Positions 24,475 to 38,065 of a DNA stretch of 38,820 bases are shown here, piece after piece. Source of the DNA: Syntrophomonadaceae bacterium (lineage in GTDB: Bacteria > Bacillota > Syntrophomonadia > Syntrophomonadales > Syntrophothermaceae); contig JAAYAC010000037.1 in the NCBI GenBank assembly GCA_012719535.1, forward strand, positions 1 through 38,820. The letters run 5' to 3'. The notes under the pieces were generated by a model that was not told the origin of the DNA, searched no databases, and saw only the letters and a list, made by a program, of their open reading frames with translations. Each line of letters opens with the position of its first letter. Positions within the stretch are counted from its first letter, which is position 1. The translations under genes were made by a program, and so were the position numbers.

Positions 24475-25299
24475 TTATATCTCCTTTGACAACCGGTCGA
24501 GTTCCTCGGCCAGGCTGGTCATTTCTTCTACACCGGCAGTCATCTCCTGGGTGGCGGCGGCCTGTTCCTCGCTGGCCCGTAAAGTCCCCTCCGAATTCCT
24601 GGTGGTCTCGATGATCTTCTGCTCTATTTGTTTTACCAAGGCGCGAATCTTATCGGCAGTCCCTTTAGATTCGTCCGAGAGCTTACGAATTTCCTCCGCC
24701 ACAACTCCGCATCCCCGGCCCGCGTCCCCGGCCCGGGCCGCTTCAATGGCAGCATTCAGGCCGAGCATTTTGGTCTGATCCGCTATATTCTTGATAAAGT
24801 TGAGGACTTCGTTGATCTCTCCAGACAACTGGCGGATCTCCGTTATGTTCCGGTGCAGGCTGGCTTCGTTTTCGTTGATGCTGTTAGCCGCGGCCGCGGT
24901 CTGCTCCGCCGCGCTGGCCACCTCCGACAGTCCCCGCGCAAGATTGTCGGCCATAGCTCTCAGTTTGAAAGCAGTAGCACGATTTATCGCCGTGCCGAAG
25001 GTGCCCGTAACCTGTCCCTGCTCGTCAAATACCGGATAGTTTAAAACCTTGATTGGTATCCCGTAGAAACTCTCATCCAGCTCAATAGTGACCGGTTTTC
25101 CCGTCTGCACCACCCGGTGAGCGCCCCCACCTTCCTTGAACCTTTCCCCTTTTCTGGCAAAGGGAACGGTAAAACTTGAAGACTGTTGCACCCACAGGAA
25201 CTTCTCCCGGTCGGTCGCATAAAGCACGGCTCCTTCCGGGAAGAGTTCCACCACCTGTGGAGCCACCGCTTCGAGTTGGCTGAAGAAGTCCGTAGTCAA
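24475..25299 (-). CDS. Soluble methyl-accepting chemotaxis protein with small sensor domain
   Basis: A 274-residue protein with no membrane segment, so a cytoplasmic chemoreceptor. Residues about 15-105 form a small sensor domain ([40 protein letters not shown]). Residues about 110-274 are the signalling coiled coil, with the CheA/CheW-contact tip at [16 protein letters not shown]. It is short compared with classical receptors. The sensor resembles both sensor copies in the protein at 36590. Ligand unknown; no che genes in the window. A TTGACA-type promoter was not identified. Confidence 0.9.
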
Positions 25300-31380: not shown

Positions 31381-32640
31381 TCATGCCCTCAGCCTGATCG
31401 CGACGGACGGTGCTTCGGGCACCACTAGAACCCTAGCAGCAGGACCGTGGTGGAAGGACACCTGTTCCCAGGCCTCTTGCAAGCTGGCAACCGGTGTTAA
31501 AAAGGCTTTCCGGGTCATCCCCGGGTCCATCCGGCTTACCAGTACCACCCGCACCCGCTCCAGTAACCGGCAAATGGCGTAGGCCTTGTGGCCCCCCAGT
31601 TGAAAACCTGCGCTAAAGCGCTCTATGATATCCTGCGGTTGCGAGGCCTGGTCAAGCCACTCGGCAAACACCGGCTCGCCCAGCCCTTCACAGCATTCCG
31701 CCACCAGGATAATGGTACCCCCTGGGCGAACGGCGGCAGCAGTTGCGTCCAAGGCCTTCTGCGCCTGGTACAGGTTGATGTCCTTGGGGTATCCCCCGCA
31801 CCCGGCGATAACCAGGTCCGCCGGTTCATGGATAGCAATAATCTGGTTAGCTTCGCAGAACTTGACCGCCTCCAACCATGCCAGTTCCAGGTCACCTGCC
31901 ACTGCCTTGCTGATGTTCTTATCAGGCGTGGTGACCACATTAAGAATAAAGTCGACCCCCACCCGGCGGGCGGCCTCCATGGCCAGGTGATGTACCGGGT
32001 TGTCCTCATAGTTGCCCAGCGTGGCCCGTTCGTCGGTCATCAGGGCATGGTTGGCTTCAATCAGCTTTCGCCCGGCCACCCCGGGAAGTATCGATTTTCT
32101 ACCCCCCGAATAGCCGGCAATATAGTGAAGGCCCACCAGGCCGGTAGTAACCAGCACTTCCGCCTCCACGACCTCACGGTTTAGCAGCAATTCCCGTCCG
32201 TTGGCCAGCTGTCCCAGGGAAACCAGCTCTTCATCGCAGTTATGATTGACTATGCGGTACTTCTCCGCAACCTCGGCACCGTAGATTTCCCGGTTTTCCT
32301 CGGCGGTGTGCCCCCGGTGGATTCCGGTCGCCACCACCAGCGTGACGCCATCGACACCGACACCGGCTGCATGTATTTCCTCCAGCAGGGGGGGTAACAT
32401 GACATGATAGGGAGTTGGCCGGGTGATGTCGTTTACTACCACCACCACCTTCCGGGCCCCCTTCCCCCGGATAATATCCCTTAAACGCGGGGTGCCAAGA
32501 GGATTATGCAAGGCTTCGGTTACCATCTCCCGGCCTTCTTTCCCCGGGATAGCTGTATTTCCTCGGAGAATACCTGCAACCTGGGCGTCAGGGATGTCTA
32601 CCTCTTGGTAACCCTTGCCATAGGCCAGCTTTATCTGCAA
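31381..32640 (-). CDS. larA: Nickel-pincer lactate racemase family protein LarA
   Basis: A 419-residue protein from TTG 32640 behind GGAGGGGG. The LarA ligands can be placed: H108 (GIHRGH), H172 (GLHYIAGYSGG), K182 (GGRKSILPG) and H198 (EANHAL). These match the H108/H174/K184/H200 pattern of the Lactiplantibacillus enzyme, in which K184 binds the nickel-pincer cofactor. The N-terminal DITRPTP also fits. It probably interconverts L- and D-lactate or a related 2-hydroxy acid. Cofactor genes larB, larC and larE are not here. It faces glcD-glcF divergently, which oxidise D-lactate or glycolate, supporting a lactate-use role. Confidence 0.87.
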   Translation of the reverse strand: MQIKLAYGKGYQEVDIPDAQVAGILRGNTAIPGKEGREMVTEALHNPLGTPRLRDIIRGKGARKVVVVVNDITRPTPYHVMLPPLLEEIHAAGVGVDGVTLVVATGIHRGHTAEENREIYGAEVAEKYRIVNHNCDEELVSLGQLANGRELLLNREVVEAEVLVTTGLVGLHYIAGYSGGRKSILPGVAGRKLIEANHALMTDERATLGNYEDNPVHHLAMEAARRVGVDFILNVVTTPDKNISKAVAGDLELAWLEAVKFCEANQIIAIHEPADLVIAGCGGYPKDINLYQAQKALDATAAAVRPGGTIILVAECCEGLGEPVFAEWLDQASQPQDIIERFSAGFQLGGHKAYAICRLLERVRVVLVSRMDPGMTRKAFLTPVASLQEAWEQVSFHHGPAARVLVVPEAPSVAIRLRA

Positions 32641-32685
32641 CTCTATACCCCCTCCGGATTCTTCCGCATGAACTTACTTCATTAC

Positions 32686-32691
32686 ATTATA
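32686..32691 (-). promoter_or_regulatory. Candidate -10 box for larA
   Basis: Minus-strand TATAAT lies about 46 bases before the larA start. A TTGTTG lies 18 bases further upstream. Confidence 0.4.
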
Positions 32692-32760
32692 CAATAAAGA
32701 GACCCAGGCCAACAAAGAACCCCCGGCCGGTTAAATTTCCCCCTTCGCTTCCTGACATTG

Positions 32761-32769
32761 TGCTATAAT
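32761..32769 (+). promoter_or_regulatory. Extended -10 promoter of glcD-glcF
   Basis: TGC followed by TATAAT is a full extended -10, about 68 bases before ATG 32838. It is back-to-back with the larA promoter, about 80 bases apart, leaving room for a shared regulator. Confidence 0.5.
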
Positions 32770-32837
32770 ATCCGTTGTTAGGAAGCTCACCCCCTGTAGG
32801 AAACGGGCAGGTACCAGACGCGACAAGGAGTGGATCG

Positions 32838-34238
32838 ATGGACAAGCGTACGTTAAGACATGAGATGTTGAGAATACTGGACAAAGACCGGGTTCTTTCC
32901 GATGACCTGGACGTGATGTATTATTCCTATGACAGTTCTTTTCTTACCAAGATTGAGAAGCTCTATCCCGACGTGGTGGTGTTGCCTCGTTCTACCGAAG
33001 AGGTTCAGAAGATTATGCGGTTCGCCTACGAACATGGCATCCCCGTAACCCCGCGCGGGGCCGGCACCGGCGAAACCGGTGGCAGCGTGGCCCTTACCGG
33101 GGGTATAGTTCTGGACCTTTCCACCTGGGATGAAATTGTGGAGGTAGACGTGGCCAACATGCAGGTCATAGTCCGCCCCGGGGTCATACATGCAGACCTC
33201 AATGATTACCTGGCCAGGTATAATCTGTTTTTCCCCCCCGACCCGGGCAGCAGTAAGATGTGCACCATCGGCGGCATGGTGGCCAACAACGCCAGCGGCC
33301 TCCGGGCCGTCAAATACGGTTGTACGGAACAATATGTCCTGGGGCTGGAAGTCGTTTTGCCGGACGGGGAGGTTATCACCACCGGCGGAATGAAATCAAA
33401 AGCTATCAAGAATGTTTCCGGCCTTAACCTGACGAAATTGATGGTCGGCTCCGAGGGGGTGCTCGGGGTCATAACCAAAATACGGCTGCGCTGCTGGCCG
33501 AAGCCCAAGGCTCGCGGCATCGTCATGGCAGTATTCCCCGCCCTGGACGATGCCCCCGCCACCGTACTGGACGTTTACCAGGCGGGTATCCTCCCCTCGG
33601 GAATAGAAATACTGGATCAGTCGGCCATCCGGGCCGTCAACCAGTTTAAACCGGAGATCGCCCTGCCCGATGCGGAAGCCATCCTCCTGTTCGAGGTGGA
33701 CGGCAATCCGGCCAGCGTGGAATGGGAGGGAACCACTATCGCCGAGATCTGCCGGCGGCGCGCCACTCAAGTTGAGTGGGCCACGGATCCCCAACGGATG
33801 GCCAGCCTGTGGGAAGGGAGAAGTGTTACCGCCACTGCCGCGGCCCGGGTACGTCCCGATGGGAGCCGGGTATTCGCCGGTGAAGACATCAGTGTCCCGC
33901 TGTCCCGGGTCGCCGAGACCCTGCGGGCCATCCGGGGACTGGGGCAAAAATACGGCATTCCGGTGGTGAACTATGGCCACATCGGAGACGGCAACGTTCA
34001 CACGGCCCCGGTTATTGACCCGGAAAACCAGGCCGAGGTGGAAAAAGTAAAACAGCTGGTCCATGACATCCACTTGCTGGCCATAGAGCTCGAGGGGTCC
34101 ACGACCGGCGAACACGGTGTAGGAGCGGTCCGGCGCGGCTACGCGGAGCTGGAACACGGCCAGGCGGTGGGGATTATGCGCGCCATCAAAAATACCCTGG
34201 ACCCCAAAGGCATCATGAATCCCGGCAAGCTGTTCTAA
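32838..34238 (+). CDS. glcD: FAD-linked glycolate/D-lactate dehydrogenase subunit GlcD
   Basis: A 466-residue protein from ATG 32838 (AAGGAG upstream). FAD-binding type 4 domain: VVLPRSTEEVQKIMRFA, TPRGAGTGETGGSVAL, GGMVANNASGLRAVKYG, and GSEGVLGVIT. The C-terminal FAD-oxidase cap includes NYGHIGDGNVH and STTGEHGVG. It oxidises glycolate or D-lactate to the 2-oxo acid, passing electrons to the Fe-S subunit GlcF encoded next. It diverges from larA, so D-lactate is the likelier substrate. The longer frame upstream lacks a ribosome site. Confidence 0.93.
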   Translation: MDKRTLRHEMLRILDKDRVLSDDLDVMYYSYDSSFLTKIEKLYPDVVVLPRSTEEVQKIMRFAYEHGIPVTPRGAGTGETGGSVALTGGIVLDLSTWDEIVEVDVANMQVIVRPGVIHADLNDYLARYNLFFPPDPGSSKMCTIGGMVANNASGLRAVKYGCTEQYVLGLEVVLPDGEVITTGGMKSKAIKNVSGLNLTKLMVGSEGVLGVITKIRLRCWPKPKARGIVMAVFPALDDAPATVLDVYQAGILPSGIEILDQSAIRAVNQFKPEIALPDAEAILLFEVDGNPASVEWEGTTIAEICRRRATQVEWATDPQRMASLWEGRSVTATAAARVRPDGSRVFAGEDISVPLSRVAETLRAIRGLGQKYGIPVVNYGHIGDGNVHTAPVIDPENQAEVEKVKQLVHDIHLLAIELEGSTTGEHGVGAVRRGYAELEHGQAVGIMRAIKNTLDPKGIMNPGKLF

Positions 34239-34300
34239 GCGGCCCGGGCACCGGATTGTAGCTGTAACCTGACTTTCACGGGAATAGGAGAGGACTTGTT

Positions 34301-35584
34301 TTGAATTTCAAGGAGTTGCCACCGGTAAAGGATCAAATACGCAAGTGCGTGCGCTGCGGCAGGTGCCGTACGGTGTGCCCGGTGTTCGCCGAGATAAGAA
34401 ACGAAACAGCGGCTCCCCGGGGCCATGTTTTCATGGTGCAGATGCTCCGCGACGGAGTGGTTGCTCCGAATGCGAAAATATATGAAAAACTGGGAAACTG
34501 CCTGTTGTGTGAAACCTGTTCCACCTTTTGCCCTTCCGGCATAGACGTACACGAGTTGAACGCAGCTGCCCGGGCCTACATCACCAAGAATCAGGGCTCC
34601 GTGGCCAAGCACCTTATCTTCGACGGCCTGTGGACCCACCCGCACCTCTTGCGCCACGCTACCTTGATGATGTGGGGAGCCCAGGCCAGCGGCTTGCAGA
34701 AGCTGGCCCGTGGACTCGGCCTGACCCGGCTTCTGCCCGGAGATCTTCCCCGGGCGGAGAAAATACTCTCCCGCATACCACTTCGTTCCGCCCGCAGCCG
34801 GCTGGCGGAAACCAACCGGGCCAAAGGAGAACGTAAGTTGCGTGTCGGGTACTTTCTCGGTTGTGGAACGGATCTTTTTAACCCCGACGTGGCGGTAGCA
34901 ACCGTAGAGGTTCTGACCCGCAACGGCTGCGAGGTAGTTATCCCCCGCGACCTTAAATGCTGTGGTCTTCCTCACATCGCCAATGGTAAGCTGGACACGG
35001 CCCGCAGCCTGGTACTGCACAACCTGGATGTTTTCACCCGCCTGCAGCTGGATTATATCGTGACCGATTGCGCCTCGTGTTCCTCGGCGCTTTCGGCAAA
35101 GAATCTGCAGTTTGTACTCGGGGAGAAGGAATTCGCAGGGCGGGCAGCGGAGTTTGCCCGTAAGGTCATCGACCTGACGGCTTTTCTGGTAGACGTTTTG
35201 GAGGTTAATACCTGGGAACTGCGGGCTACCGGTCCCGTCCGGGTTACCTACCACGATCCGTGCCACCTGGCCAAGGCCCAAAACATCCGTAAGCAGCCCC
35301 GGGAGCTGCTCGGTCTCATCCCGGGTGTAGAGTTGACCGAGATGAGCGAGGCTGACCGGTGTTGCGGGGGCTCCGGAACCTTCAGCCTCACCCATTATGA
35401 CCTGTCTATGCAAATCCTGGACAGGAAAATAGACTCCATCAAGGCCACCGGCTGCGATACGGTAGCCACCTGCTGCCCCAGCTGCACCATCCAACTGCGG
35501 CACGGTCTGAAACGGCACGGTTATCGCGCCCGGGTTTTGCACCCGGTGCAGATCCTGGCTCGGGCCTACCGCGGGGCAAAGTGA
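34301..35584 (+). CDS. glcF: Fe-S subunit of glycolate/D-lactate dehydrogenase GlcF
   Basis: A 427-residue protein from TTG 34301 behind GGAGAGG. Two 4Fe-4S clusters at the N-terminus: C16/C19/C22/C26 and C67/C70/C73/C77. Two cysteine-rich CCG domains follow: GCGTDLFNPD with LKCCGLP, and HDPCHLAKA with DRCCGGSG and TCCPSC. It carries electrons from GlcD toward membrane carriers. It sits 62 bases after glcD in the same operon. Confidence 0.93.
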   Translation: MNFKELPPVKDQIRKCVRCGRCRTVCPVFAEIRNETAAPRGHVFMVQMLRDGVVAPNAKIYEKLGNCLLCETCSTFCPSGIDVHELNAAARAYITKNQGSVAKHLIFDGLWTHPHLLRHATLMMWGAQASGLQKLARGLGLTRLLPGDLPRAEKILSRIPLRSARSRLAETNRAKGERKLRVGYFLGCGTDLFNPDVAVATVEVLTRNGCEVVIPRDLKCCGLPHIANGKLDTARSLVLHNLDVFTRLQLDYIVTDCASCSSALSAKNLQFVLGEKEFAGRAAEFARKVIDLTAFLVDVLEVNTWELRATGPVRVTYHDPCHLAKAQNIRKQPRELLGLIPGVELTEMSEADRCCGGSGTFSLTHYDLSMQILDRKIDSIKATGCDTVATCCPSCTIQLRHGLKRHGYRARVLHPVQILARAYRGAK

Positions 35585-36589: not shown

Positions 36590-38065
36590 TTATAGCGACC
36601 CGGCCACTTCAGCCAGCTTTGACGCCAGGTCCGCCATTTCCGTAACTGCGGCTGTCGCTTCCTGGGTAGCGGCTGCCTGTTCTTGACTCTGTCGCACACT
36701 TCCCTGGGACGCCTCGGCGGCTATGGTTACCTTAGTCTCGATATCGGCAGTCAATTTCCTGATCTGTTCTGCCGTTTCCTTGGACTGATCGGAAAGCTTC
36801 CGGATCTCCTCCGCCACCACCCCAAAACTGCGGCCGTGTTCCCCGGCCCGTGCGGCTTCGATAGCTGCATTCAAACCGAGCATTTTGGTCTGATCGGCCA
36901 CCTTCCTGATAAAATTCAGGATATCATTAATCTGGCCGGAAATGTCCTGTACTTCTCTGATGACCTCGGCCAGGTGACCTTCGTTGATGTTGATCTCATT
37001 GGCGGAAGCCGCAATCTCTTCCATCACGCTGGCTGCTTCCTGCGTGTTGCTAGTCAGCCGGGCCGCCATCTCCCGCAGGGTTTGGGCAAGCTTGCGCGGT
37101 ACCAGGATACCGAACGTGCCCACGACCTCACCGTTTTCATCGTACAAGGGAACACCGGTGATGCGGAAGGGGCCGTATTTTCGGCTGTTTATGTCCCGCA
37201 CGATCGGTGTCCTGCGTTTGAGAACCTCTGTCCCTGCGTCCCCCTCCCTGAGTACACTTCCCGGCCCAAGCTCGTGGATCTTAAATTTGTCGCTGGCGAG
37301 GCTGTGCGTTACTTTCTCCCGGTCGGTTATCATCACCTGGGCCCCTTCCAGCTGAGACTGTATCATGATGGGGGCAAAGATATCAAAGCCTGCCGCCACC
37401 GGGTGAACGTGCGGAACCATCACCCCGCAGGTGCCTATGACTTCTCCCGAGTCCCGGCCGGCAAATACCGGCATGATCCATATGTTAAGGGGCATACCAT
37501 AGACTTTGGCGTCAACCAGGCCGATCACGTCCTTCTTCGTTGCGATACACCTGGCTACATAGCCGCCCGCGACTATCCTCTCTCCCACCTTGATTCCTGG
37601 TATCTCTATCCCCTTACTTAGAACGAAATCGTAACGCTCAAGATCGGTGGTGAAATAGATTACCCCTCTCTCGTAGGTTTGAACCAAGAGAGGGGCCGAG
37701 GTCTTAAAGGCCTCCTTCTTACTGTGGAGGCGCTCAACCATCTGGTCGTGCGACTCGGTCAGGGTCATGATGACATTGGCCACCTGAGAATCGATCAACA
37801 AAGTCTGCTCCTGCTTCGTGGCCAGGATAGTCTCCTTAACCTTGCCGCTGCCTGTGGCTTCGATAACGATATTGAGAGCAGGGGTCTGTAATAGGGCCCC
37901 GATATCCGTATACACCGGGACTCCCAACTCCCGGGCCAGCTTGATGCCCGGGGCGTCAGCGTTGACATCACAGACACCAACTATCTGAAATTCGCTAATA
38001 CCGCTGAAGGCTCGCAGTACGGAACTCCCGCCCTTGCCGCCCCCGACAATTCCGATGCTGGTCAT
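36590..38065 (-). CDS. Rossmann-domain chemoreceptor with two tandem sensor domains
   Basis: A 491-residue protein starting at ATG 38065 behind GGGGGGAG. Residues 1-100 form an NAD-binding Rossmann fold: [10 protein letters not shown] (4-13), an acidic residue after strand 2 (VCDVNAD, D33) typical of NAD preference, and [10 protein letters not shown] (67-76). No oxidoreductase catalytic domain follows. Residues about 127-220 and 237-325 are two copies of one small sensor domain, each with an ITDRE/TTDLE-type start, a YG turn and a GEV-GT-G-VP end. Residues 330-491 are an MCP signalling domain with tip [15 protein letters not shown]. There is no membrane segment. It may report NAD(H) or a metabolite to the flagellar system. 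Confidence 0.88.

Follow-up and report, generated by a model that had tools for sequence, protein, structure and literature searches.

The chemoreceptor gene and its layout

The window, by which we mean the whole 38,820-nucleotide stretch of DNA analysed here, carries on its reverse strand a gene (36590-38065) whose 491-residue product is confirmed as a cytoplasmic (soluble) chemoreceptor by all testable features. The protein begins with a Rossmann module, continues with an unnamed domain in two copies and ends in a short MCP signalling hairpin (Table 1). The hairpin matches the Pfam MCPsignal model at residues 338-486 (E-value 4.9e-25, 88.8 bits against a cut-off of 34.6). It hosts the conserved tip sequence that contacts CheA and CheW at about residues 386-420, with the tip itself near 400-410, and a motif scan finds methylation-like, consensus-like motifs at 345-354 and 464-473, symmetric about the tip. 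The highest 19-residue Kyte-Doolittle mean in a hydropathy scan is only 1.3, therefore the receptor is taken to have no transmembrane segment.

The preliminary description of this locus had proposed a chemoreceptor with a Rossmann domain, and this part stands. It had also joined that domain directly to the MCP domain, which is not the case, as about 210 residues with the two domain copies intervene; direct joining is seen in shorter relatives of 285 residues. Two further claims, that the middle domain is duplicated and that the catalytic half of a dehydrogenase is missing, are borne out. The two copies align to each other with an hhalign probability of 99.5% (E-value 2.6e-22, 98 columns, 26% identity), and a Pfam scan of the receptor finds no match to a dehydrogenase catalytic C-domain even at an E-value of 10.

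Two trivial explanations of the layout were rejected. An artefact of assembly or reading frame is contradicted by the recurrence of the fusion, which 13 class genomes and a second lineage share, and a truncated dehydrogenase gene by the fusion being clean and conserved.

The neighbours of the receptor gene vary between genomes and are not conserved, so the genomic context cannot name the ligand. A search near the gene brought up neither a sigma-54 promoter nor a convincing sigma-70 promoter above chance level. By eye only, we recognise within 31381-35584 a LarA-like lactate racemase gene (-), adjoining a glycolate/lactate oxidase pair that consists of an FAD subunit and a Fe-S subunit, both (+). 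A prepilin peptidase gene (-), again identified by eye only, lies between these genes and the receptor.

Table 1. Positions in the window of the receptor gene, its parts and a paralogue
Feature	Position	Strand	Basis
Chemoreceptor gene, 491 aa	36590..38065	(-)	ORF and translation, Pfam
Rossmann core, strands 1-5 (residues 1-92)	37790..38065	(-)	Pfam, AlphaFold2, Foldseek, PDB profile matches
GGGKGG, glycine-rich dinucleotide-binding loop (residues 8-13)	38027..38044	(-)	G8, G10, G12, G13 conserved
D33, end of strand 2	37967..37969	(-)	99% conserved
EATG, end of strand 4 (residues 69-72)	37850..37861	(-)	T71 100%, G72 94%
Long helix replacing the catalytic half, leading into the rest of the receptor (residues 93-118)	37712..37789	(-)	AlphaFold2 helix 93-116; S93/A96 conserved
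Unnamed ligand-type domain, copy 1 (residues 120-222)	37400..37708	(-)	hhalign against copy 2
Unnamed ligand-type domain, copy 2 (residues 227-332)	37070..37387	(-)	hhalign against copy 1
MCP signalling hairpin (residues 333-491)	36593..37069	(-)	Pfam MCPsignal, motif scan
Paralogous cytoplasmic receptor, 274 aa: one unnamed domain and MCP hairpin, without Rossmann module	24475..25299	(-)	Pfam MCPsignal 5.1e-27

The Rossmann module

The GFO_IDH_MocA model (PF01408) matches residues 4-82 with an E-value of 1.9e-6 and 29 bits when the whole protein is scanned, and with 2.6e-7 and up to 32 bits when the isolated Rossmann domain is used, against a cut-off of 24. On the same stretch of the whole protein the CoA_binding model (PF02629) is slightly over its cut-off (23.7 versus 22.3 bits). 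When 19 relatives are scanned singly, GFO_IDH_MocA is matched by all 19, CoA_binding by eight. A chance resemblance to the Rossmann motif was considered and rejected, as 19 of the 19 relatives pass the family's E-value limit and the fold search agrees.

The preliminary description had claimed a nucleotide-binding N-domain of the dehydrogenase type, with fold prediction and a fold search of this region set beforehand as the test. AlphaFold2, run with two input sequences, returns a confident Rossmann core for residues 1-118 (pLDDT 87, pTM 0.79). Strands are predicted at 2-7, 26-32, 66-69 and 89-91 with helices between them, followed by a long helix at 93-116. The best Foldseek matches of this model listed from the PDB are all NAD(P)-dependent oxidoreductases, e.g. 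Gfo/Idh/MocA enzymes, acylating acetaldehyde dehydrogenase, pyrroline-carboxylate reductase and GAPDH, and the cleaner superpositions are at about 2 Å over 92-98 columns. A profile of the 19 relatives compared with PDB sequences yields few matches, among them acetaldehyde dehydrogenases (E-value 7e-5) and Rex, a repressor that senses NADH (0.0017). The claim has come through this test, with Pfam, AlphaFold2 and Foldseek all in its support. Viral contigs scanned with the module profile gave no matches.

Conservation was counted over about 79 module sequences of all output types. The share of sequences that keep the residue is 99-100% for G8, G10, G13, D33 and T71, 94-97% for G12, A44 and G72, 92% for V76 and 86% for K84. 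The receptor's own module has both the GxGxxG loop and the acidic residue that ends strand 2. We take the conserved positions to be the cofactor-binding positions of the Rossmann fold; that of D33 presumably binds the adenosine ribose, as in NAD-specific folds. GxGxGG, D33 and T71-G72 survive across MCP, sigma-54 and HD-GYP proteins, therefore selection on the motif appears to be independent of the output. In three 301-residue Fis-type relatives (L119-L121) the glycine loop is degenerate (G12 to E) and G72 is mostly lost.

The middle domain and a paralogous receptor

The unnamed domain is about 100 residues long and recurs, single or double, in further cytoplasmic receptors that these genomes encode. 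No Pfam family matches it over cut-off, and of its PDB profile matches even the best, to the Cache sensor of TlpA, is weak (E-value 0.28). A receptor of this kind is encoded elsewhere in the window: the 274-residue paralogue is 47% identical to residues 228-486 of the 491-residue protein.

Distribution and history of the receptor

An architecture search for Rossmann and MCP domains, suggested in the preliminary description, reveals a conserved family. Receptors with the full layout, about 492 residues long, occur in 13 genomes of the class (61-63 searched), including Syntrophothermus lipocalidus, and the 285-residue Rossmann-MCP form is about as frequent (61 genomes searched first). Altogether, the module sits on receptors in 29 of 63 class genomes. 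S. lipocalidus has two full-length copies; its strain TGB-C1 oxidises fatty acids in syntrophy and is weakly motile (PMC3035303). The second lineage, represented by the metagenome-assembled genome Ch109, has four copies of the fusion. In the genome of one relative (G007:C27:183583-184598) a full-layout receptor gene contains frameshifts and a TAA codon and is apparently a pseudogene. The earlier statement that no characterised receptor of this layout is known agrees with the open-access literature, in which we found no receptor of the Rossmann-MCP type described and hence no published family to refute it.

Where did the fusion come from? The modules of the 285-residue receptors are 43-51% identical to that of the window receptor. 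Its MCP half is 50-59% identical to most double-domain receptors that are Rossmann-less, versus 32-46% to the 285-residue receptors. In a tree of the module, sequences group by output architecture (8 groups, 7 changes), although many of its forks are weak because it is built on 118 columns only. The group of the window receptor forms a single cluster that neighbours the 285-residue receptors. The simplest history would be that the module was fused onto a pre-existing double-domain receptor.

The module on other outputs

The preliminary description missed that the Rossmann module is not peculiar to the 491-residue receptor; it is, judging by its sequence matches, a widespread input module. In an even sample of the phylum it was detected in 110 of 398 genomes at an E-value of 1e-8 or better. 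Its carriers include activators of about 570 residues with PAS, sigma-54 AAA+ and Fis domains, two-PAS activators of about 690 residues, short PAS-Fis proteins of 301 residues that do not have the AAA+ domain (L119-L121) and very short MCPs of 225 residues. A single protein in S. lipocalidus (L105:3899-6172) combines the module with PAS-GAF-PAS-HD-GYP, a cyclic-di-GMP-type output. Module-headed sigma-54 activators were located at L090-L104 and L106-L109 (e.g. L095:4150-5877 and L101:4033-6093).

The sigma-54 versions of the module adjoin redox-coupled catabolic genes. The 570-residue activators lie beside genes of the propionate pathway, namely those for fumarase, malic enzyme, succinate dehydrogenase, succinyl-CoA synthetase and methylmalonyl-CoA mutase. 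Some of the 690-residue activators adjoin branched-chain-keto-acid genes (ptb-bcd-buk), which encode phosphate butyryltransferase, a leucine-dehydrogenase-type enzyme and butyrate kinase, a neighbourhood that they share with BkdR. From this context and the length of the relatives we infer that Bacillus subtilis BkdR also carries the module. The BkdR of B. thuringiensis has been described only as two PAS/PAC domains and an AAA+ domain (PMC4428206). Among 431 clostridial sigma-54 activators, a published census reported PAS, GAF, PTS, PrpR_N, ACT, CBS, Fer4, hydrogenase, V4R and receiver domains, and no NAD domain (PMC6615313). In the sigma-54 regulators the module mostly scores below the Pfam cut-offs, which would explain its absence from such censuses.

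What the module may bind

On balance, and with moderate confidence, we favour the reading that the ligand of the Rossmann module is most likely NAD(H) or a close adenine dinucleotide, by which the module would report the redox state of the cell. An Asp that ends strand 2, together with a GxGxGG loop, is a dinucleotide signature, and an acidic residue at the former position is typical of NAD specificity. The preliminary description had suggested that the receptor reads NAD(H) or a dehydrogenase substrate inside the cell, and the retention of the motif across 74 sequences favours this.

Could the module instead be a scaffold? It might be a ligand-free device for dimerisation or docking, left over from a dehydrogenase, with the duplicated domain or a partner protein doing the sensing. 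Dimer packing is the signalling route of many chemoreceptor domains, and the same genomes have receptors with the duplicated domain and without the Rossmann module, so the duplicated domain suffices for a receptor and may be the real sensor in the 491-residue protein. However, the 285-residue receptors have no domain besides the module and the MCP hairpin, which makes the module their only candidate input. Nor would a mere scaffold be expected to keep the glycine loop, D33 and T71-G72 across lineages that share 30-60% identity. We therefore consider a scaffold unlikely.

Another possibility concerns the ligand, which could be a CoA thioester or some other metabolite containing an adenine nucleotide, in which case the module would report the supply of acyl-CoA. 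The score of PF02629 slightly above its cut-off points this way, as do the genes for methylmalonyl-CoA mutase, succinyl-CoA synthetase and phosphate butyryltransferase beside module-bearing regulators and those for acyl-CoA dehydrogenases beside some of the receptors. That said, the best and most uniform match is to the NAD-binding family, the loop and the Asp are those of a dinucleotide site and PF02629 itself also includes Rex, and we rate a CoA ligand as rather improbable. Least probable of all is a module that senses NADP(H), or a sugar- or aldehyde-type substrate beside a permanently bound cofactor in the manner of substrate-reporting enzymes; its nearest solved relatives, acylating acetaldehyde dehydrogenase and the Gfo/Idh/MocA enzymes, are indeed substrate dehydrogenases, but the module retains no substrate domain and the Asp at position 33 disfavours NADP.

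Comparison with known systems

The window receptor resembles cytoplasmic MCPs in its MCPsignal hairpin, conserved tip, methylation-like sites and lack of a transmembrane segment. It differs in its sensory part, a dinucleotide-type Rossmann domain and a duplicated unnamed domain, apparently in place of PAS, GAF, Cache or four-helix sensors. With the Gfo/Idh/MocA dehydrogenases and acylating acetaldehyde dehydrogenase (MhpF/DmpF) it shares an N-terminal cofactor domain, in sequence and predicted fold, but instead of their catalytic C-terminal half it has one helix leading into the signalling domains. The 285-residue receptors have the same module and an MCP hairpin, but no middle domains and a more distant MCP half. 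The N-terminal module is shared by sigma-54 enhancer-binding proteins of Firmicutes, BkdR-like ones among them, whose output is PAS, AAA+ and Fis-type DNA binding.

Rex likewise uses a Rossmann domain as a sensor, and the profile similarity is weak but direct (E-value 0.0017, as above). Rex has a winged-helix DNA-binding domain where the window receptor has an MCP output; the Pfam scan of the latter finds no N-terminal winged helix, and the module begins at residue 1. Energy-taxis receptors of the Aer type would share with it the proposed steering by internal redox state. Aer holds its FAD in a PAS domain, however, and in the window receptor no PAS domain passes the cut-off, the PAS_4 match having an E-value of 0.16 and 12.6 bits against 23.1. 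As one defining feature of each was looked for and not found, the receptor is not a dehydrogenase, Rex or Aer, and it may, by analogy, work like either of the last two.

A proposed redox input to taxis and transcription

We propose that two sensory inputs are stacked on one signalling hairpin in a soluble receptor. The module would derive from a dehydrogenase of which the cofactor half was kept and the catalytic half lost. NAD(H), or with lower probability some other cofactor that contains adenine, would bind to it, and the bound state may alter how the modules of a receptor dimer pack at helix 93-118. From this helix the signal would pass through the duplicated domain, where whatever that domain binds would modulate it, to the MCP hairpin, which would act through CheW to control CheA and with it flagellar rotation. 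On the sigma-54 activators of fermentative and syntrophic catabolism, the same module would play the same role.

We infer from these sequences that the module could be an intracellular NAD(H) or redox sensor common to taxis and transcription. A half-enzyme reused in the receptors and gene regulators of many related bacteria suggests that the internal redox state may guide both the steering of cells and the switching of their genes. More tentatively, the module may be an unrecognised redox module shared across Firmicutes, on chemoreceptors, on sigma-54 activators including those of the BkdR-like and propionate-pathway kinds and on a cyclic-di-GMP-type phosphodiesterase, such that one NAD(H) signal would set both swimming and catabolic expression, especially in syntrophic fatty-acid oxidisers at the edge of redox balance.

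Energy taxis is known to work via FAD-PAS receptors and membrane redox sensing; to our knowledge, no chemoreceptor that reads NAD(H) directly has been described. Many carriers of the module are syntrophic oxidisers of fatty acids or propionate. For these oxidisers, whether metabolism can run depends on the NADH/NAD+ ratio that the hydrogen partner sets. If our proposal is true, the module would also account for what a large set of sigma-54 activators respond to.

The partners that the hairpin would need are present. The genome of the window encodes seven CheW domains, two of them within large CheA-type frames, as well as flagellin genes. Across the class, CheW is found in 28 of the 29 genomes with module-bearing receptors versus 23 of the 34 without such receptors (Fisher p 0.004, with no correction for kinship). 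Another contig of the window's genome (C18; L152:400-1944, reverse strand) encodes a 514-residue protein of three tandem CheW domains, whose gene adjoins an MCP gene and a 932-residue frame with HATPase and CheW domains. About a dozen further class genomes have similar frames of 506-557 residues with repeated CheW matches.
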